A stretch of DNA of 64,000 bases, taken from the NCBI RefSeq assembly GCF_000013405.1, contig NC_007759.1:2853001-2917000 (forward strand). The letters are read 5' to 3'. The translations under genes and the position numbers were made by a program. Position 1 is the stretch's first letter. Each line of letters begins with the position of its first letter. This stretch comes from Syntrophus aciditrophicus SB (lineage in GTDB: Bacteria; Desulfobacterota; Syntrophia; Syntrophales; Syntrophaceae). Under the pieces are notes generated by a model, which was not told the origin of the DNA, did not search any database, and worked only from the letters and a program-made list of their open reading frames with translations. Of the stretch, positions 35,618 to 46,798 are shown in pieces.

Positions 35618-37927
35618 TTAGCGCCCCCCTTTACCATCGGAGATGTCATGCTGAATATACTGAAAGGAAGGTGAAATCTCGGAATATGGAATCTTAAAGT
35701 CTTCAAGGACAGCGTTTTTAATGACCCATCTGTTTTTCTTTTTTACCATGAGGACAAAGTACCCCGTCATTGGCGCTCCATTCTGAGAAACATAGAACAG
35801 AGCCGTGTCTTTCTGTTCGTTGAATCCGATCCGGGAGAGAAAAACCTCATCAGGAAAAACCGTTAAAGGCTGCTCCATGCCACGCCCCCCCTCGCGGTTG
35901 GGTTCATTGGTCTGCAGAATTTCAAGCCATGGAACCACCATTCTGTCCCTGAGTATACGGACTCTTTTGTTTTTCTCCCTGTAATCCTCCATGATGGATT
36001 TATCCAATGCACCAAAACTCTCCATGAGATGTGTCAGCGTCTGCTTGTCCGAATTCTTCCCGGCTGACGTCTCATGATAAACGTGCCGCGCTCTATAAGT
36101 ATTGGAGAAATATGGAGGAATTTCAAAACCGCGCACTTCTTCCGCACTGAAGAAATCAGCATAGACCTCGTATTCGTCATCACTGACTTCCGCGACGGGT
36201 TCAGGCTTCGAATTCAGGCTAACCATTGGTTGAAATGAACTCAGGATTTTGTCGAACACCCATTTGTTTTCCTTGAACAACGCTTCCGGCGCATCGTACA
36301 CCAGCACATAAAAACCCGTATGGGCAGGTATAACCACATATCGCTCTATTGCCTTCACGGGCTTGGCGTTCATCCCCTGAAAGGGCTGTCTGACTTTTTT
36401 TATTTCCAGCGTCTTGGCTTCCGGCCCGGTTAACGGTAAAACTTTTGCGTCCGCTCTTCGAGAACTGAAACGGGGATTCAACAGGTCATATATGAACCGT
36501 TCAGGGGTTCCGCATGCGTCCCGATGCCAGGCAACCCTCACACTCAGATATTCCAGACCCTCCTGACCCGGCGCCCGGACAGTCAATTCATATTTATTGT
36601 TTCCGCTCAGGAGGCTGGATCGCTGGATGTCATATTCTTCTCGCGGCCATCCTGCTGGAATCTGCAGGGTGAAGTGTTTACTCGACGGCGTAAATTCTTC
36701 GAAATTTATATTCTTGAGTGTGGAAGAAGCGCCGCCGTCCTTCTCACACAGCGCCACACATTCTTCTTTTGTTTCAAAGGGCACCGTTCCCTCGCACCCG
36801 CCGTAAACGAATTTCTCGCATTTTTGGGTTTCCGGATTGAAAAAGTAACGCCAGAAAATCGCTTTGCATGGCCCTGAATCGGGCTTCAACCTGCACCTTT
36901 CCTTGAGATCCTTTACATTTTCTTCCATGGGAAAAAGCCATGGACTGCCCCATGCCTCTTCCACATGCCCTATGGCATACGGAACCGCTTGACCGAAGTC
37001 TCCCAGGAGATCCTGGTCAAACTCGTAGTCCCCCTGATATCTCATCAGTTGGATGAACATGTTCTGATTTTTGGAAAATTGCCCGATACCCGGAAAAATT
37101 CCTTTCATTTCATCATTTTCAAGCTGTGACGATGTCGTGGCCCTCATTTCTTGAAATCCGAAACATCCGCCATAATAAGATTGAAGAGGTTCACAGAAAG
37201 TCCCGGGTGTAATGAGAATAAGGTCGATCATTCCAGAGCCGCCAAACGTGTTGGAAGTTTTCAGAGGATAATAGAGTTCCTTCGTTTTAAACCTGTACTG
37301 GATCGGCTCAACGAAACGGATCTGTTCGTTCACCGTGACGAAGTCGAAAACAAACCAGACAAAGCCCCGCCGGGTGTAATCACGAACGACAGCCTCGATC
37401 TTCGGATCTTCACGCTTCAGTTGCAAACCCTTCTGCCTGAGGAATTCCCTGACCCACCCATTGAATTCCGCCGCATCATTGATCCTGATCACCGTCACAT
37501 CGTGAGAGCCAAGCCGCTGATTGAACCGCATCTCTACCGCTCGCGCCGCGGCACGGCCGCCCTTGGTCTGCTCAATGAATTTCAACCCGTGCTTTTTGAT
37601 CAAATCCATTGCGGACTCGAAGGAAGCCGGTGAGGCCAACTGCACCTTTGGTTCCTCAGGAAATGGAATAAACCGGATGATGCGTGCAGATTTATCCGCC
37701 TTGAGATCCGTCCCGAGAATCAGCACTTCTTCTTCGCGGTTGTGCAGGATAATGGCTTTCTGGCTGTCTTCCGACACCTGCGCCTCTGTGGCCACAACTC
37801 TGCCCATATCCGCCTGAATCGGCGTCGGCAGGATGATCATGATCAAAAATGCAATCCATAATAGAATAATTTGCGTGGGAATGACTGACAACATGGGCAT
37901 CTGATGGCTTGTATCAGACTTTTTCAT
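35618..37927 (-). CDS. Secreted DUF2330 protein with an embedded Kunitz/BPTI domain
   Basis: A 769-residue exported protein. The signal segment is residues 16-39 (ending TPIQA). Residues 40-325 match my recollection of DUF2330 (VVATEAQVSEDSQKAIILHN, IIRFIPFPEEPKV). At 345-394 lies a Kunitz domain: Cys at 345, 354, 370, 378, 390 and 394, with GPCKA at 352-356 and FVYGGC, almost as in bovine BPTI, so the reactive-site P1 residue is Lys355. Cys spacing is 8-15-7-11-3 against 8-15-7-12-3 in BPTI. A beta-rich domain (about 410-590) and a C-terminal domain follow. It is probably periplasmic or surface-exposed. It follows a hairpin downstream of the RiPP cluster and is probably a separate transcript. 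Confidence 0.85.
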   Translation of the reverse strand: MKKSDTSHQMPMLSVIPTQIILLWIAFLIMIILPTPIQADMGRVVATEAQVSEDSQKAIILHNREEEVLILGTDLKADKSARIIRFIPFPEEPKVQLASPASFESAMDLIKKHGLKFIEQTKGGRAAARAVEMRFNQRLGSHDVTVIRINDAAEFNGWVREFLRQKGLQLKREDPKIEAVVRDYTRRGFVWFVFDFVTVNEQIRFVEPIQYRFKTKELYYPLKTSNTFGGSGMIDLILITPGTFCEPLQSYYGGCFGFQEMRATTSSQLENDEMKGIFPGIGQFSKNQNMFIQLMRYQGDYEFDQDLLGDFGQAVPYAIGHVEEAWGSPWLFPMEENVKDLKERCRLKPDSGPCKAIFWRYFFNPETQKCEKFVYGGCEGTVPFETKEECVALCEKDGGASSTLKNINFEEFTPSSKHFTLQIPAGWPREEYDIQRSSLLSGNNKYELTVRAPGQEGLEYLSVRVAWHRDACGTPERFIYDLLNPRFSSRRADAKVLPLTGPEAKTLEIKKVRQPFQGMNAKPVKAIERYVVIPAHTGFYVLVYDAPEALFKENKWVFDKILSSFQPMVSLNSKPEPVAEVSDDEYEVYADFFSAEEVRGFEIPPYFSNTYRARHVYHETSAGKNSDKQTLTHLMESFGALDKSIMEDYREKNKRVRILRDRMVVPWLEILQTNEPNREGGRGMEQPLTVFPDEVFLSRIGFNEQKDTALFYVSQNGAPMTGYFVLMVKKKNRWVIKNAVLEDFKIPYSEISPSFQYIQHDISDGKGGR

Positions 37928-38258: not shown

Positions 38259-38561
38259 CTACTCAGCCGTGACGGTGCAGCTGTTGGCACAGATGTCGCG
38301 GCAGGTGCGATCACACTCGCCGGCACAACTGCCTGTACATCCGGTGCATCCCTGGCAGGTTTCGGAGCATCCCCCGGAGCAGGTATCGGCACAATCAGCC
38401 GCTGCCGGCTTTGGTGAAAGCTGCATCAAACTCAAGCCAAGAATGCCGAGAGTGGGAATGATGGCCTTGCCGACCGTCGTAAAAAACCCACGCCTGTCAA
38501 CCTTTTCCGTCTTGCCGTATACCGTTTCCATCTTTTTCCTGAATGAGTCCTCGCCATCCAT
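38259..38561 (-). CDS. CXXX-repeat RiPP precursor 1 with Tat signal peptide
   Basis: A 100-residue precursor. The leader has a charged N-terminus, then VDRRGFFTTVGK (twin-arginine, RRxF), a hydrophobic stretch IIPTLGILGLSL and an Ala-x-Ala signal-peptidase site in PKPAAAD directly before the first Cys. The core (about residues 57-96) has 11 Cys spaced 3-3-3-2-2-3-3-3-3-3, i.e. nearly pure CXXX repeats (CADTCSGGCSETC...), ending VTAE. It is closely similar to precursor 2. Such peptides are substrates of radical SAM maturases of the CXXX-repeat type that likely form thioether links. AAGGAG lies nine bases before the ATG. The product is unknown. Confidence 0.85.
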   Translation of the reverse strand: MDGEDSFRKKMETVYGKTEKVDRRGFFTTVGKAIIPTLGILGLSLMQLSPKPAAADCADTCSGGCSETCQGCTGCTGSCAGECDRTCRDICANSCTVTAE

Positions 38562-38669
38562 GGGAACATTCTCCTTTCGCGAAGTAAAAGCTGAAAAACA
38601 TTAGGAACTGACTTAATGAGGTCGGTCGCTGAAAATAAAAGCATCCAAAGACTTTATCTATCCGGGATT

Positions 38670-38975
38670 CTACCTTGCCGTGACGGTGCAGCTGTCAGCG
38701 CAGATGTCGTGGCAGGTGCGGTTACATGTACCGGAACAGTTGCCCGAACATCCACCAGTACACCCACGACAGGTTTCGTAACACCCCCCCGAACAGGTAT
38801 TTGCACAATCGGCCGCGGCTGGCCGCGGAGAAAGCGGCATCAAGCTCAAACCGATTATTCCGAGAGTGGGAATGATGACCTTGCCGACTTTCGCAAAAAA
38901 ACCGCGTCTGTCGACCTTTTCCGTCTTCCCGTATAATTTTTCCACCTTTTCCCCGAACGGCAGTTCATCATTCAT
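38670..38975 (-). CDS. CXXX-repeat RiPP precursor 2 with Tat signal peptide
   Basis: A 101-residue paralogue of precursor 1, sharing YGKTEKVDRRGFF and IIPTLGI(I/L)GLSLM in the leader and 11 Cys in the core. Cys spacing is 3-3-3-2-3-3-3-3-3-3, so it differs by one residue in the centre (CRGCTGGCSGNC). Leader residues are better conserved than the non-Cys core residues, as expected for a recognised leader. AAAGGAGAG lies upstream. It is 74 bases after the small accessory protein and 108 bases before precursor 1; the two are a recent tandem duplication. Confidence 0.85.
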   Translation of the reverse strand: MNDELPFGEKVEKLYGKTEKVDRRGFFAKVGKVIIPTLGIIGLSLMPLSPRPAAADCANTCSGGCYETCRGCTGGCSGNCSGTCNRTCHDICADSCTVTAR

Positions 38976-39049
38976 TTCCGGACTCTCCTTTCACGAATTC
39001 TTATTGAGGATCATAGGCCTCTGCGGGGTGTTTTTATGAAGAATACTCT

Positions 39050-39391
39050 TTATATTTTCCGCAAATATATATTGCAGGTTTCAAAATCGATTTCCCAGAT
39101 GCAGCCACTGACCCGCTCCCATTGATATCGCTGTGCACATCGGTCCCACCACTGCTGGTGCAACGTTGTCGTTTTTCCCAGGTCGGCGACGATTTTTTCG
39201 TAAAAATAGCTGTTTGTGAGAATTTCATCGCCGGACTCCACCAGCGCTTTGATGAGTTCGGTCAATCCGTTTTTGCGTTCAAAAAGTGCGGATATTTCAT
39301 CGCGCTCCCGGGGAGTCACCTTCCCGATCTTACTGCGCTCGTCTTTGCCGTTGCAGACTCCGGCCTTATCGTCCATCGTGTTCGTCCTCAA
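39050..39391 (-). CDS. CXXX-repeat peptide modification system accessory protein
   Basis: A 113-residue soluble protein with no signal. The middle reads LTELIKALVESGDEIL, then FYEKIVADLGKTTTLHQQWWDRC and a C-terminal aromatic stretch (YQWERVSGCIWEIDFETCNIYL). Length, context and this YEKIVxDLGKT...WW block fit the small CXXX repeat peptide modification system protein annotated by TIGRFAM next to such maturases; this is from memory. Its start overlaps the stop of the SPASM partner (ATGA). It may be a leader-binding adaptor comparable in role to PqqD, although I see no PqqD fold. Confidence 0.7.
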   Translation of the reverse strand: MRTNTMDDKAGVCNGKDERSKIGKVTPRERDEISALFERKNGLTELIKALVESGDEILTNSYFYEKIVADLGKTTTLHQQWWDRCAQRYQWERVSGCIWEIDFETCNIYLRKI

Positions 39392-40473
39392 TCCAGTTCT
39401 AATTTCCGCAGGATTTTCTTCTGCATCTCGTATATCTGCTGCAGGCAGTTATCGGCATCCTGCGACGTCGCGCTGACTGCTGCAGGCTCCTCCCTTTTCC
39501 AGGTCTCCCCCACGATCAGATCGAACGGATCGTCATAGGTTAGACTGGCAATGGCAGGGAACTGGTCAAACGGTCTGACCGTCCGGAGACTTTGCAGCAG
39601 AAGCCTCGAAACCTCCCGCTCGACATGTGACGCCAGACACTGCTCCCGGGAAGGCACATTGACTTCCAGTGTGGTCTTCTTGTTCAGATAGACGCAGCGT
39701 TTGCAGTGGAACGCGTCGCAGCGTGAACAGATCGGCGCACAGCCGAGATCCAGCAGCTGGTGATTGGCATGCGTTGTTTCAATAATGTCCGACCAATAAC
39801 CGACCGTATCCGCTTCATCGTCATAATAAAATGCCGGACAGATATAGGCGTTCCCGTCGGGAGCTATGGTCAGGTGTTTGATTCCGGCATCACAATTGTT
39901 CATCTGGTTCAAAAGCAGCCGGTCTGAAATGACATTGATCTCGATTTCCCTGCCGGTCCGGTAAAGCTGGGCAAGCCGGTCCGCTATTTTTTTCAATTCG
40001 CTTTGGTAAACATCCAATTGTGCGGAGGAAATAGTCTCAACTCCCACCAGGTGCAGATTCAGCCGTTTGAATTTTCCCCAAAGCGACGCGACCATGTCGG
40101 ACAGATGAGGAAGATCCGTCGGCGTGACCGACAAAACGAGGTTGCGCTCAGAATCGGCTTCGAGCTCCGAGAACCGCATGCTTTCATCCGCTTCCAGCAC
40201 CGGCACGCCATCGGGATAGATGTCCTTCAGGACCACCGGGATCATTTTGACATGTCCGATCGTGCCAATCAGGCTTTCATACTCTAGGGACAACGGGTGT
40301 CTTCCAAAGAGGAAATTGAGGAACAAGCCGTTTTCCCGGGCATATTCGACTATCTTCCCGAGGATTTCCAACGGCATGAATTCCGGTTCTGCCGAGGAAT
40401 AATAAAAAGGATTGCTGTAGTGGCAAAACGGGACTGCGCCTTTTTCCAGAATCACCAGCAGATATCTGTACAT
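39388..40473 (-). CDS. SPASM-domain partner maturase lacking the radical SAM motif (CXXX-repeat system)
   Basis: A 361-residue protein related to radical SAM/SPASM enzymes. Where CX3CX2C is expected the N-terminus reads ILEKGAVPFCHYSNPFYYSS, so the SAM cluster cannot form. The C-terminal half keeps SPASM-type Cys: GIKHLTIAPDGNAYICPAFYY (about 205-225), then CAPICSRCDAFHCKRCVY and REQC. ATG 40473 is one base after the stop of the true maturase; an in-frame TTG five codons upstream is less likely. This fits the family named CXXX repeat peptide maturase, found beside a genuine radical SAM enzyme. It probably binds auxiliary Fe-S clusters and helps in substrate handling. Confidence 0.78.
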   Translation of the reverse strand: MYRYLLVILEKGAVPFCHYSNPFYYSSAEPEFMPLEILGKIVEYARENGLFLNFLFGRHPLSLEYESLIGTIGHVKMIPVVLKDIYPDGVPVLEADESMRFSELEADSERNLVLSVTPTDLPHLSDMVASLWGKFKRLNLHLVGVETISSAQLDVYQSELKKIADRLAQLYRTGREIEINVISDRLLLNQMNNCDAGIKHLTIAPDGNAYICPAFYYDDEADTVGYWSDIIETTHANHQLLDLGCAPICSRCDAFHCKRCVYLNKKTTLEVNVPSREQCLASHVEREVSRLLLQSLRTVRPFDQFPAIASLTYDDPFDLIVGETWKREEPAAVSATSQDADNCLQQIYEMQKKILRKLELD

Positions 40474-40474
40474 G

Positions 40475-41665
40475 TCATCTCGCCTCAACAGGTCGTTCGC
40501 GGCCGAGCCTGTCCGCTAATTTTTCCCCAAAATACCGGTTTGCCCGCACCCTGGCCTTGTGCATGGCACAGGTATAAACAGCGCGCTGGTAGATGGTGTC
40601 GGTCGCCGCAAGGTCGTAATTGTTACCCTGACACCAGGCACAGCCGCTGGCGACATCGCACGCGATACATTCCTCTGGACTCTGCATGCTCCTGTTCAGC
40701 ACCAGGAAAGGCCTGACCCTGTTCATGTCGAGGCCATCGAAGCAGTTGCCGATCGATCTCGCCGGTTTATACCGCATGGAATAGGGAGCGAACCGCACGC
40801 AGGGATAAAAGACGCCGTCACCGTCAATCGCCAGCATTTTTCCGCTTCCGCACCAGTTTCCGTTGTCCGTCTTGCAGTCGAGCGGCTTTCCAATGGATTT
40901 GGAAAAAAACGAACAGTTGTGGGTGTCGTACAGATCGTTTTCGACAATGTAATCCGCCAGCTCACGCAACTGCGTCTCATAAATGATGTCATCGCCGGGT
41001 TCCCAGATGTTCTCGTTGACCAGGTTGATCGTCACATTTTTCAGGCCGAGCTGCCAGAGATGGATCACGCTTTCTTTGAGCAGCGGCAGGTCATCATGCG
41101 CGACCGTGGCTTTGGTGGACGCGTTTGGAAATTGTTTCAGCCATAACGGCACATTTTTCACGACCGCGTCATAAGACCCGCTGCCGTCAGGGAAAACCCG
41201 TTGCGCGTCATGCTTTTTTCTGGTGCCGTCGATGCTGATCGATATGCTCAGGTGGTGGGCATTCTTTCTGATAAAACGCTGCACCTTTTCAGTGCCGTAC
41301 AGGAGACCATTGGTGGAAAAACTGAACCGGTAGCTGTTGAACCAGGGATGATCCAACTCATACATCCGGCGCTTGATGTAATCGCAGATCCGGTCGATCA
41401 ATTCGATCTCAAGCAGCGGCTCACCGCCGATAAAATCCCAGATAACCGAATCTTCCCAGAACAGGGCTCGATTATGCAGGATATAGTCAACCGCCGTTCT
41501 GGCTATCGTAAACGACATTCTGTTGAATTTGTTTTTCCCGATGATGTAGCAGTAACCGCAACGCAACTGGCAATCTTCGGTGACAATAAAGGTAATCGAT
41601 TTCGCCATTCCCGATCGCCAGGTTGGCTCGTATTCCCCCATCTTTACATCGCTATAAGAGTCCAA
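40475..41665 (-). CDS. Radical SAM/SPASM peptide maturase, CXXX-repeat target type
   Basis: A 396-residue enzyme. The radical SAM cluster motif is CQLRCGYC (Cys32, Cys36, Cys39) with the GGEP motif in FIGGEPLLE (about 80). The SPASM region has CGSGKMLAIDGDGVFYPC (about 280-297) and CIACDVASGCAWCQGNNY (about 335-352), then a last Cys near 370, enough for two auxiliary clusters. Such enzymes form C-S (thioether) bonds in Cys-rich peptides. The frame starts at TTG 41665, eight bases after AAGGAG; the ATG eight codons later lacks a ribosome site. Two precursor genes lie upstream and two downstream on the same strand. Confidence 0.9.
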   Translation of the reverse strand: MDSYSDVKMGEYEPTWRSGMAKSITFIVTEDCQLRCGYCYIIGKNKFNRMSFTIARTAVDYILHNRALFWEDSVIWDFIGGEPLLEIELIDRICDYIKRRMYELDHPWFNSYRFSFSTNGLLYGTEKVQRFIRKNAHHLSISISIDGTRKKHDAQRVFPDGSGSYDAVVKNVPLWLKQFPNASTKATVAHDDLPLLKESVIHLWQLGLKNVTINLVNENIWEPGDDIIYETQLRELADYIVENDLYDTHNCSFFSKSIGKPLDCKTDNGNWCGSGKMLAIDGDGVFYPCVRFAPYSMRYKPARSIGNCFDGLDMNRVRPFLVLNRSMQSPEECIACDVASGCAWCQGNNYDLAATDTIYQRAVYTCAMHKARVRANRYFGEKLADRLGRERPVEAR

Positions 41666-42820: not shown

Positions 42821-45800
42821 TTACCGGAACTCGATTTTGTAAAAGATGTCCGCGCCGCTCACGGTTCCGCCGTGTGTTTCCACCTCCCACTTTTCGGAAA
42901 ATTTGTATCGCAGCTTGACGACGCTCTGCTCCGAAAAGAGGTAGCGACCGAAACTGACATAAAGCCTGGGGGTCAGATACTTGCCGATGGAGACCATGGA
43001 ACCGGCCATCAGACCGTTCTGCGTCGCCGCCGTGCCGGGCTGGCCCGCAACAGCCGACGTATCCCTGGTGAATTTGACTTCCACGCCTTCAAGTCCCAGT
43101 CGGCTCTTCAGCTGGGAGATAACGGAAGGAGATTCGGATTTCGTCAGAATGGAGCCGGCCGCGCGCAGCAGCAGGGACAGATCCGGTTCGTTTCCCTCTC
43201 CCTGAAGGGCGCGGCCGAGCACGAGATAGGAAAGAATTTCCGGCTCCTGCATGGCAGGACGGGAGTAGAGGCGGATGCGGGGCGAAGAGATCGTCCCGCC
43301 GACAAACACTCCCGCCGTGACATCCTCGACCTTGCGGGCGGCGGTGATATCGAGTTGCGGGGTGTCGGCCGGCCCGGCAAAGATGATGCGGCCGCTCTCC
43401 ACCTTCAATGTTACACCGTACACACTGTAACTGCCATCCACGATCCGGACAGTCCCCTGCGCCCTGATATTTTCCGGGCCCGTCGCCGCGGTTGCAACCG
43501 TTCCGCCAAGCTGGAGATTGGCGCCGTCGGCCTTGACGCGAACATCGTCACCAAGAATGACGGCAACCCGGACATCGAGAGCGAAGGGCATCTTTCTTCC
43601 CCTTGAGGGCGGCGCATCCACGACAACCACGTCCCTGCTCGGCGTGATCACGGACGGCCCCTGTCCTGCAAGAGCCAGCATCCGGGGCACCGAAACGCTG
43701 CCGCGCACGGCCAGTTTTTCCAGATTGCCTTCAAAACGGAGATCGGGACTTGTCAGCAACTGCAATTCCGGCAGATTGACGGTCTGAAACCGGTCTCCCT
43801 TGACTGTACCGGAATAGGATGACACCTGGCTGCCACTCAAGACGATTTCCGCCTGAAGGTCGATGCTGCCGGGGCCGGAATTCGCCCTCAGGGAATCGAT
43901 CAGGATCTTTGTCCCCTCCATGCGCGCCTTCAAGCTCACATCCTTCAGCTCGATCCCGGCGGCCGGGAGGTAGGCCCCCGCTTTCGCCATGTCGACACGC
44001 CCCTCCACCCTGGGATCGCCCCAGGCGCCGCCGACCGTGACGGCGAGATCGAGTTCCCCCTTCCCCACTTCGACAAATCCCGGAAAGGCGGCATTCAGCA
44101 TGCCCGCTTCCCGGAGTCGGCCGCGGATCGATGCGGCCACGGTTCCCGACGGGTCCGGGACGACGGGAATCCGCGCCGGAAGAGGAATTCTGAAAGCCGC
44201 CTGCAGGCTGCCGTAATCGACAAACTCAGCGCTCGCCCTGCCTCTCAGATCAGCGTCCCTCCAGGAAAAGTCAACGGCGGCGCTCCGAAATCCGATGGAA
44301 ATCTGCCCCTCTTCGTCCTTCCGGGTTGCCGATCCCGATAAGACATTCAACTTTCCGGACAGTTCAAAGGCGCTGCCGGGCAGCAGCCTCCCCTCGACTT
44401 TACCCGCCGCGCGGCCGGCAACCGTTACGCCGGAAGGCAGCCAGGCATGGAACAGGCCAGGATCGAGATCCCGGACATCCATTTCGAATTTCCCCTGGTC
44501 GGGAAGAGCCAGGCGAACGGGAGCCGGTGAAGAGGCACGTCCGTTAATCACCCCTTCGCCCGCAAGGGAAACTTCCAGCCGAGCGTCCAACCCTTCCCGT
44601 CCCCAATTAAGCAAAGCCTCCGCCCGGTTGAAGGAAACGGGCCGCCCCCCGATTGCAGCCTTCCCCGAGGAGCTGAATTTGCCGGCAAGGAGAGCCACAT
44701 CTCCTCGGGCAAAACGGGTTTCCAGATTTCCCGATGTCTTCCCGGAAAGACCGCTATCGGGAATCCAGGAGGAAATGCGCTCCAGCCGGATTCCAGCCCA
44801 GGAGGCGTTCAGACGTCCCTGCAGGGGATTCAGAAACATATCCGCCGCCAGGTCCAGACGCTCCCCGGCGTTGCCGGCGAGAACCAGAGGGGAGACGGAT
44901 ACGGCACGCCGGGAGATCATCAGCTCAGCCGGCGACAGGAGCCGCCAGGGGCCGGATCTGTCCCGGCCGGAGAGTTTTTCGATCGTTCCCCGCCATGTCC
45001 CGGACGCGTAGGAACCGGCAAGAGAGGCATCCGCCGTTGCCCGCGGCGCCCGCGCTTCTATGGAAATCCGGTGGCGCGAAAGGGCGCCCCGCGCCCGCAC
45101 GACAGCGGCAGAGAGCTCGACCGAATCGTACCTCAGGCTCTTTGCGTTCACAGCCGCATCCAGCAGCCGGTCTTTTTCCGCGGCGAGCGTCATCCGGTAG
45201 GAAAGGGAATCGGCCGCGAAGCGGTCAACCGAAACATTTCTCCCGCTTCCTTCCGCGGAAAACGCGGTCAGCCCGTCCCGCAGGCGGACCCAGCCCTGGG
45301 CGGATAGCCGTCCCCGGGCGGAAGGAATCAGTTCCCCGAGATCGCCAGCGGCAGCACGGAAGTCGATCCGTTCTTTCAGCGCCCCGGAAGCGCGCACGGC
45401 GAACTGCCGCCCCCTGACATCCAGTAGAGCGATATCGAGATCATCGCCGCGCAGGCGCACGTCCGCTTCGCCCGTAAGATCTCTGCCGAGCAGTTGACTG
45501 CGTGATATCCAGGCCTGGACGCGGGCATCGGGGGGCGCATCCGCTTTCATGCCGAGCTGTCCGCGGGCCGTTACATTCAACGCCCCTTTCCATTGGGGAT
45601 CGAATACCGCCGGATTCAAACCGGTTCCTTCCACCGCTGCCGTCAGGCGCACGCCTTCTTTCCAGTTGACCGCGACGTCGCCCGAAACGCGTCCGGCCAG
45701 CCATTTCCCTTCCGAAAGCGTCAGTTTGAGCCTCTCCAGGTCGCCGCCAAAGGACCCTCTGAGGACAGTCGAAGCCCACGTTTTCCCCGTGTTGGTCAGA

Positions 45801-46798
45801 GAATACGACCCTGTGTAATCCGTGGGAACGCCCTTCAGATCGATCTCACCGCTGATGTCCGTGGGAAAGGAAATTTCCGGGGAAAGATCGAGATGGGACG
45901 CCTTCACCCGAATACTGTAAAATGGCTCTCCTTCCGGAAACGTCACGACGGCGCTGCCAGCCATATCTCCTTTCAGTCCGGGCCTGAGCAGACGGACATC
46001 CCTCAGATGGACGGAATGTTTCGCCAGCCCAATGATGCCCGTCAATCCCGTCTTTCTGCCGCCGATGTCAGCGGCTGTGAGAGAGACTTCCCCAGCGATC
46101 GGCTCGGGGGCCGCGGTTTTCCTCAAGCCGGCTTTCAAGGAAAATTTCCCGACACCGTCCCCACCCCCGCTTTGCAGGTCAAGGGCCGTTTCCAGATTCA
46201 GAAAGGGGATGATAAAGCCCGCCGAAGCGTCCCCGCGAAGCTCCCCCCAGGGAGACTTGATGCGGATATTTTTCAAATCGAGGATGCCGGCATTCCACTC
46301 CAGACTCCCCTGAATGCGGTCGATCCGGACCGGCGGCTCTTCAAGTCGGCGGTATTCGATATTGCTGATGTCGAGAGAAGCGATTCCGCCTCTCAGGGAA
46401 CCGAGAAAGCCCGGTACGGAAGGCCAGCTCAAGTCCGGCGGCTCTTTCTCTTCCGGCCTCCGGTCGTGCACGGCGACGCCCTCCATCCGCAATTCTTCCA
46501 CAGACAGGAAGCCCGCCGGAAGCGATCGAGGGGAAGGCTTGATGAAGATGGAGGAGATCCGCGCATCGAAGGATTCTGTGGACAGCTCCAGGTTTCGAAG
46601 CGCCAGACCGTCCATCAGGTTGCCCTCGGAGCGCCCGATTTTCATCTGAACGCCGGCCTGGCTTCCGAGAAATTTCAACAGCCGGAGGGACCCCTCGGGT
46701 GTTTTCAGAACATGATAGAGCGCTGCCGACAGGAGCAGAACGACCAGCAGAATCCCCGCGAGAAAGAACAGGCCGTATTTGACTCTTTTTGACGTCAC
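42821..46798 (-). CDS. tamB: Translocation and assembly module subunit TamB (AsmA-like, DUF490)
   Basis: A 1325-residue inner-membrane-anchored periplasmic protein. One N-terminal membrane segment (about 8-30, LFFLAGILLVVLLLSAALYHVL) is followed by about 1000 residues of repetitive beta-strand sequence forming a lipid-transporting groove (many GxLxLxG-type strands). The C-terminal DUF490 domain has SGRIIFAGPADTPQLDITAAR and ends SGADIFYKIEFR, typical of TamB. It spans the periplasm and works with the TamA barrel in phospholipid transport or autotransporter insertion. Its ATG overlaps the tamA stop. The RiPP cluster begins 232 bases downstream on the same strand; co-transcription is possible but unproven. 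Confidence 0.93.
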   Translation of the reverse strand: MTSKRVKYGLFFLAGILLVVLLLSAALYHVLKTPEGSLRLLKFLGSQAGVQMKIGRSEGNLMDGLALRNLELSTESFDARISSIFIKPSPRSLPAGFLSVEELRMEGVAVHDRRPEEKEPPDLSWPSVPGFLGSLRGGIASLDISNIEYRRLEEPPVRIDRIQGSLEWNAGILDLKNIRIKSPWGELRGDASAGFIIPFLNLETALDLQSGGGDGVGKFSLKAGLRKTAAPEPIAGEVSLTAADIGGRKTGLTGIIGLAKHSVHLRDVRLLRPGLKGDMAGSAVVTFPEGEPFYSIRVKASHLDLSPEISFPTDISGEIDLKGVPTDYTGSYSLTNTGKTWASTVLRGSFGGDLERLKLTLSEGKWLAGRVSGDVAVNWKEGVRLTAAVEGTGLNPAVFDPQWKGALNVTARGQLGMKADAPPDARVQAWISRSQLLGRDLTGEADVRLRGDDLDIALLDVRGRQFAVRASGALKERIDFRAAAGDLGELIPSARGRLSAQGWVRLRDGLTAFSAEGSGRNVSVDRFAADSLSYRMTLAAEKDRLLDAAVNAKSLRYDSVELSAAVVRARGALSRHRISIEARAPRATADASLAGSYASGTWRGTIEKLSGRDRSGPWRLLSPAELMISRRAVSVSPLVLAGNAGERLDLAADMFLNPLQGRLNASWAGIRLERISSWIPDSGLSGKTSGNLETRFARGDVALLAGKFSSSGKAAIGGRPVSFNRAEALLNWGREGLDARLEVSLAGEGVINGRASSPAPVRLALPDQGKFEMDVRDLDPGLFHAWLPSGVTVAGRAAGKVEGRLLPGSAFELSGKLNVLSGSATRKDEEGQISIGFRSAAVDFSWRDADLRGRASAEFVDYGSLQAAFRIPLPARIPVVPDPSGTVAASIRGRLREAGMLNAAFPGFVEVGKGELDLAVTVGGAWGDPRVEGRVDMAKAGAYLPAAGIELKDVSLKARMEGTKILIDSLRANSGPGSIDLQAEIVLSGSQVSSYSGTVKGDRFQTVNLPELQLLTSPDLRFEGNLEKLAVRGSVSVPRMLALAGQGPSVITPSRDVVVVDAPPSRGRKMPFALDVRVAVILGDDVRVKADGANLQLGGTVATAATGPENIRAQGTVRIVDGSYSVYGVTLKVESGRIIFAGPADTPQLDITAARKVEDVTAGVFVGGTISSPRIRLYSRPAMQEPEILSYLVLGRALQGEGNEPDLSLLLRAAGSILTKSESPSVISQLKSRLGLEGVEVKFTRDTSAVAGQPGTAATQNGLMAGSMVSIGKYLTPRLYVSFGRYLFSEQSVVKLRYKFSEKWEVETHGGTVSGADIFYKIEFR

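Follow-up and report, generated by a model that had tools for sequence, protein, structure and literature searches.

Does an apparently exported bacterial protein carry an inhibitor of the Kunitz/BPTI type, and against which protease would it act? The question is raised by a gene of Syntrophus aciditrophicus SB in the window, by which we mean the whole stretch of 64,000 nucleotides analysed here (contig NC_007759.1, positions 2,853,001 to 2,917,000). Inhibitors of the BPTI type are commonly regarded as belonging to an animal family, and an initial annotation of the window had described a eukaryote-like Kunitz domain in the middle of a DUF2330 protein, as one of a few bacterial cases. The gene, its parts and further features are compiled in Table 1.

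Table 1. Location of the Kunitz-bearing protein, its parts, neighbouring genes and related loci
Feature	Location	Strand	Basis or remark
769-aa protein: signal peptide, DUF2330, Kunitz, C-terminal region	window 35618..37927	-	intact ORF; matches to PF10092 and PF00014 exceed the gathering scores
N-terminal signal peptide, residues 1-39, hydrophobic run then ...PIQA/DMG	window 37811..37927	-	read off the sequence; putative cleavage site
DUF2330 Pfam-matched core, residues 37-226	window 37250..37819	-	PF10092 E 1.9e-7, 31 bits vs cut-off 24.7
Kunitz/BPTI domain, residues 345-394, Lys P1, six Cys	window 36746..36895	-	PF00014, AF2, Foldseek, VIA-align
Predicted reactive-site loop GPCK/AIFWR, residues 352-360, P1 Lys355, P1' Ala356	window 36848..36874	-	aligned with the loops of TFPI and smCI
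C-terminal region, about residues 400-769	window 35618..36730	-	weak PsbP-like match; stand-alone secreted homologues
Complete CXXX-repeat peptide cluster	window 38259-41665	-	two TIGR04117 precursors, TIGR04116, TIGR04119, radical SAM maturase TIGR04115 (705 bits)
1325-aa TamB-like protein	window 42821-46798	-	332 bits, below NCBIfam cut-off 825
Leader-Kunitz/radical SAM locus	L045:7818-9393
Leader-Kunitz/radical SAM locus	L047:7818-9378
Leader-Kunitz/radical SAM locus	L034:7818-9369
Leader-Kunitz/radical SAM locus	L035:1012-2554
Leader-Kunitz/radical SAM locus	L038:7811-9444
Leader-Kunitz/radical SAM locus	L036:9912-11413

The match to PF00014 spanned residues 344-395 and the complete profile (1-53 of 53) with an E-value of 3.5e-15 and 56.4 bits against a cut-off of 21. 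No other PF00014 match was present in the genome, and none in 14 control genomes, thus the match is not due to chance. The six cysteines in register and the motifs GPCKA and FVYGGC, previously noted for residues 345-394, were all present, and the lysine assigned to P1 is Lys355. A shortening of the fourth interval by one residue had also been noted: the distance between C4 and C5 is indeed 11 residues, and among the PDB entries listed, nearly all solved animal Kunitz domains have one additional residue in the alignment. The shorter interval is accommodated by the Pfam model; it marks a subgroup and leaves the membership in the Kunitz/BPTI family intact.

Modelled alone with AF2 on 90 prokaryotic rows, the domain had the BPTI fold with a pLDDT of 92, presenting a hairpin of the strands 19-25 and 30-36 and a helix at 48-55; the full-length model on 11 rows was poor (pLDDT 47). 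Foldseek matched the domain model to TFPI, APPI and BPTI with a TM of about 0.75-0.83 and an rmsd mostly of 1.4-2.8 A, including complexes of BPTI, APPI and textilinin with trypsin, plasmin or factor XI/XIa. Alignments with VIA-align reached a Z near 9 and included mambaquaretin and conkunitzin. The closeness to bovine BPTI noted initially has to be qualified: the nearest solved domain and first rank in Foldseek was TFPI KD1, with 52 % identity over 58 columns and an rmsd of 1.7, while identity to BPTI was 37-39 %. The six cysteines in register and the predicted fold are compatible with a putative Kunitz pairing C1-C6, C2-C4 and C3-C5. The best indirect evidence for a pairing is a natural two-bridge version in another prokaryotic locus (L005, 1492-1665) that lacks exactly Cys 2 and Cys 4, corresponding to Cys14 and Cys38; their joint absence fits a C2-C4 bridge. 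In favour of the predicted bridges, the genome of S. aciditrophicus encodes a DsbC-like isomerase. Against them, this protein was the only match of a DSBA search and was below the cut-off, VKOR was not found in this genome, and Syntrophus is an obligate anaerobe.

The position in the middle of a protein predicted to be secreted was confirmed, with DUF2330 before the Kunitz domain, a further region behind it and a signal peptide at the N-terminus. The hydrophobic N-terminus is common to the relatives L003, L011 and L012. DUF2330 had been recognized correctly, with a match above the gathering score, but its accession is PF10092 and not PF09988. This match is modest, since a six-frame scan of the genome for PF10092 missed it; in the relatives, the conserved region extends past the Pfam-matched core to about residue 345. 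In the C-terminal region, PsbP (PF01789) at residues 408-566 obtained 14.8 bits against a cut-off of 23.5 and did not reach the gathering score. This region alone constitutes a secreted protein in two other loci (L014 and L015, 29-30 % identity), and a DUF2330 paralogue without Kunitz domain (L021) is located beside the Kunitz-bearing copy L011, thus the parts exist separately. A search for the same architecture elsewhere was successful: seven further DUF2330-Kunitz proteins were obtained (L003, L004, L011, L012, L013, L040 and L091). In L013, most of DUF2330 is deleted, and signal peptide, linker and Kunitz domain are kept. Distant DUF2330 relatives (L118-L121) have other C-terminal regions and no inhibitor.

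An initial profile of 14 domains held no stretch conserved enough for a scan of the whole collection. A scan with degenerate patterns, covering 84,980 species with a single genome per species, revealed 163 prokaryotic Kunitz-encoding stretches, and 80 loci were kept. These were affiliated to Thermodesulfobacteriota, Myxococcota, Bacteroidota, Pseudomonadota, Campylobacterota, Nitrospirota, Fidelibacterota, Methylomirabilota as well as three archaeal groups. The hosts include strains of Spirosoma, Hymenobacter, Alloalcanivorax, Geomobilimonas, Marichromatium, Maribacter and Larkinella, several of them cultured type strains. Many of the proteins are small and have a signal sequence with a lipobox. 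The distribution is patchy: Kunitz matches occurred in 9 of 395 genomes of the own phylum, where one (L009) looks spurious, and in 9 of 155 genomes of the own class, and the gene was absent from the three other genomes of the genus that were searched. Carriage on a mobile element and membership in a defence system were rejected, as plasmid and phage collections contained no Kunitz match and PADLOC gave no match.

The shorter interval is a property of the prokaryotic domains: 93 of the 98 that could be counted have 11 residues between C4 and C5. A segment [TV]-V-P-F replaces the N-x-F of animal domains, with P and F in 90/90, a count biased by one of the two scan patterns, which contained GGC-x-G-x-[VD]-PF. 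A fair test is therefore provided by the 15 domains outside this pattern; all 15 have P-F, and the interval is 11 residues in twelve, 10 in two and 12 in one of them. As judged from these alignments, the one-residue-shorter interval together with VPF is the hallmark of prokaryotic Kunitz domains. Tree reconstruction on 58 columns separated the 90 prokaryotic domains from ten animal domains with a support of 95/91; few of the inner forks were resolved. With 163 prokaryotic loci, this split and the shared deletion with the P-F motif, the initial description as eukaryote-like with few bacterial cases proved to be wrong or too narrow. The domain of the window grouped with L034 (67 % identity), two Sulfuricurvum domains and L038, and not with the DUF2330-Kunitz proteins L003, L011 and L012. 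This grouping points to a transfer of the domain from one chassis to another.

The reactive loop combines a variable position with fixed surroundings. Across the 90 prokaryotic domains, Gly12 (90/90), Cys14 (89/90), Ala16 (84/90) and Gly37 (90/90) are kept. P1 has an entropy of 2.55 bits (Lys 40, Glu 14, Arg 12, Met 7, Gln 4, Phe 4 and others); one scan pattern required CKA, which inflates the share of lysine but does not affect the difference in variability between P1 and the flanking positions. A variable P1 between fixed flanks corresponds to an inhibitor loop that is subject to selection by its targets. Among the other DUF2330-Kunitz proteins, P1 is lysine in 7/7. Such a distribution would be expected for targets that differ between lineages and are fixed within the DUF2330-Kunitz architecture.

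The DUF2330 chassis is apparently not limited to the Kunitz domain. In a protein of the same phylum and another family (L116, 1384-3474), DUF2330 is followed at the Kunitz junction by a serpin with an E-value of 3.5e-103. The match covers 2-336 of 370 profile positions, in a frame with ambiguous bases that stops about 34 profile positions early. The hinge reads EEGTEATAATAV, which we take to resemble that of inhibitory serpins. This replacement is a single case from a MAG, and no further DUF2330-serpin protein was detected in three searched genomes of the order of G058. Prokaryotic Kunitz domains were also fused to a serpin in a Nitrosopumilaceae MAG (L057, 7731-9335), to six Kazal domains in a Methanophagales MAG (L064, 135-1466) and to thyroglobulin-1 in a further MAG (L086, 3414-4544), and six Kunitz domains occur in tandem in L055. 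The three fusions combine, in archaeal and bacterial MAGs, classes of inhibitors that are usually thought to be animal. In a Neomarinimicrobiota MAG (L048, 185-2269), a Kunitz domain ends a kelch/galactose-oxidase-like protein with a dockerin.

Taken as a whole, the protein probably serves as a secreted chassis of DUF2330 type that displays a canonical serine protease inhibitor with Lys at P1, and inhibition is the best-supported role of the Kunitz domain. The loop G-P-C-Lys(P1)-Ala-Ile, fixed by the predicted bridge between C2 and C4 (Cys14-Cys38 in BPTI numbering), would insert into the active site of a trypsin-like serine protease specific for Lys or Arg and block it by the standard mechanism. 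DUF2330 and the C-terminal region may position the inhibitor within the periplasm or on the surface of the cell. Points against inhibition are that Kunitz domains may lose this activity and turn into ligands or channel blockers, that the full-length model is poor and that the gene is patchily distributed. A role as small disulfide-stabilised module for structure or protein binding, kept without a protease target, would agree with the position midway in a larger protein, with the occurrence of both neighbouring regions without Kunitz domain (DUF2330 in L021, the C-terminal region in L014 and L015) and with the ligands mambaquaretin and conkunitzin among the structural matches. However, P1 Lys, P1' Ala, Cys14 and Cys38 are kept, the 90 domains conserve a canonical inhibitor loop, and prokaryotic Kunitz domains are fused with three other families of inhibitors. 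The serpin in the place of the Kunitz domain in L116 weakens this alternative further, and we regard it as unlikely.

An inhibitor may also regulate a protease in the envelope of its own cell. The signal peptide of the Kunitz protein and three S1 proteases of the HtrA kind in the genome are in line with such a function, but these three, the only S1 proteins obtained in a search with PF00089 alone, are all of the HtrA type (Trypsin_2 and PDZ). To our knowledge, HtrA-type proteases have no preference for Lys or Arg at P1 and are not known as targets of Kunitz inhibitors. We consider the regulation of an own protease quite unlikely. As the PF00089 search revealed no S1A trypsin in the genome, the target of the presumed inhibitor is probably foreign and might belong to neighbouring bacteria, predators or protists. 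The fame of Kunitz domains as animal proteins and the identity to TFPI KD1 may finally suggest a recent transfer from an animal or an eukaryotic contamination of the assembly. This origin was rejected as highly improbable: the genome is a single contig, the domain hardly differs from its flanks in GC and GC3, the domain carries the prokaryotic deletion and P-F motif and falls on the prokaryotic side of the tree, and relatives are present in cultured type strains.

A separate observation concerns radical SAM enzymes. In six loci (L024/L036, L034, L035, L038, L045 and L047), among them that of the named strain Geomobilimonas luticola, a gene for a short leader-Kunitz protein directly precedes a radical SAM/SPASM enzyme, and these proteins end in a conserved [KR]Y-x-x-V-x-x-RDF. 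The enzymes examined were far below the cut-off of the nearest named families. From this arrangement, the leader-Kunitz-RDF protein is possibly a protease inhibitor that is matured like a RiPP. At L036 (6610-11413), a DUF2330-Kunitz gene cut to signal peptide, linker and Kunitz domain adjoins two radical SAM genes and a second Kunitz gene. In the window itself, the Kunitz gene is adjoined by a CXXX radical SAM cluster whose peptides match the family Syntroph_Cxxx. A shared function was considered and found unsupported: the cluster has its own precursors and is separated by a gap of 331 bp, and promoter and terminator matches were near chance.

More tentatively, and with somewhat less than even confidence, we propose that prokaryotes possess their own lineage of BPTI-type domains, characterised by the 11-residue interval and VPF, that would serve as interchangeable anti-protease warhead on chassis of DUF2330, secreted ankyrin or lipoprotein type and could be replaced by a serpin. 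One branch near the domain of the window, with leader-Kunitz-RDF proteins before radical SAM/SPASM enzymes, suggests a RiPP-like maturation. Should the prokaryotic domains form a separate lineage and be functional inhibitors, the history of the family would extend beyond the animals, and bacteria and archaea would use Kunitz domains in protease conflicts. Two types of inhibitor on one DUF2330 chassis would give DUF2330 a first testable role, and the natural variation at P1 would be a ready set of inhibitors of differing specificities.

Kunitz domains from bacteria have been described before: inhibition has been reported for the protein F6W77, annotated in Acinetobacter baumannii, with five Kunitz domains: domains with Arg at P1 inhibit factors Xa and XIa, those with Leu at P1 elastase (PMC11511053). 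The open-access literature searched contained no mention of DUF2330 and no description of the breadth over bacteria and archaea, the common deletion or DUF2330 with Kunitz domain or serpin, an absence there being no proof. By its description, F6W77 shares with our protein the Kunitz domain in a bacterial record, and P1-dependent inhibition was measured for it; it differs as a tandem Kunitz exoprotein for which no DUF2330 was reported (PMC11511053). In comparison with the Kunitz/BPTI family (PF00014; MEROPS I2), the domain of the window resembles BPTI, TFPI KD1 and APPI in the six cysteines, the predicted fold, the GPCK-A loop with Lys at P1 and Ala at P1', and the GGC after the second strand. 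It differs from them by 11 instead of 12 residues between C4 and C5 and by V-P-F for N-x-F, and from animal Kunitz domains by its embedding between DUF2330 and a further region of a bacterial, predicted-exported protein. The N-terminal half matches DUF2330 (PF10092), a family without known function, above the gathering score. The serpins (PF00079) appear as another inhibitor domain on the DUF2330 chassis in L116 and beside a Kunitz domain in L057, with an unrelated fold and a suicide mechanism.
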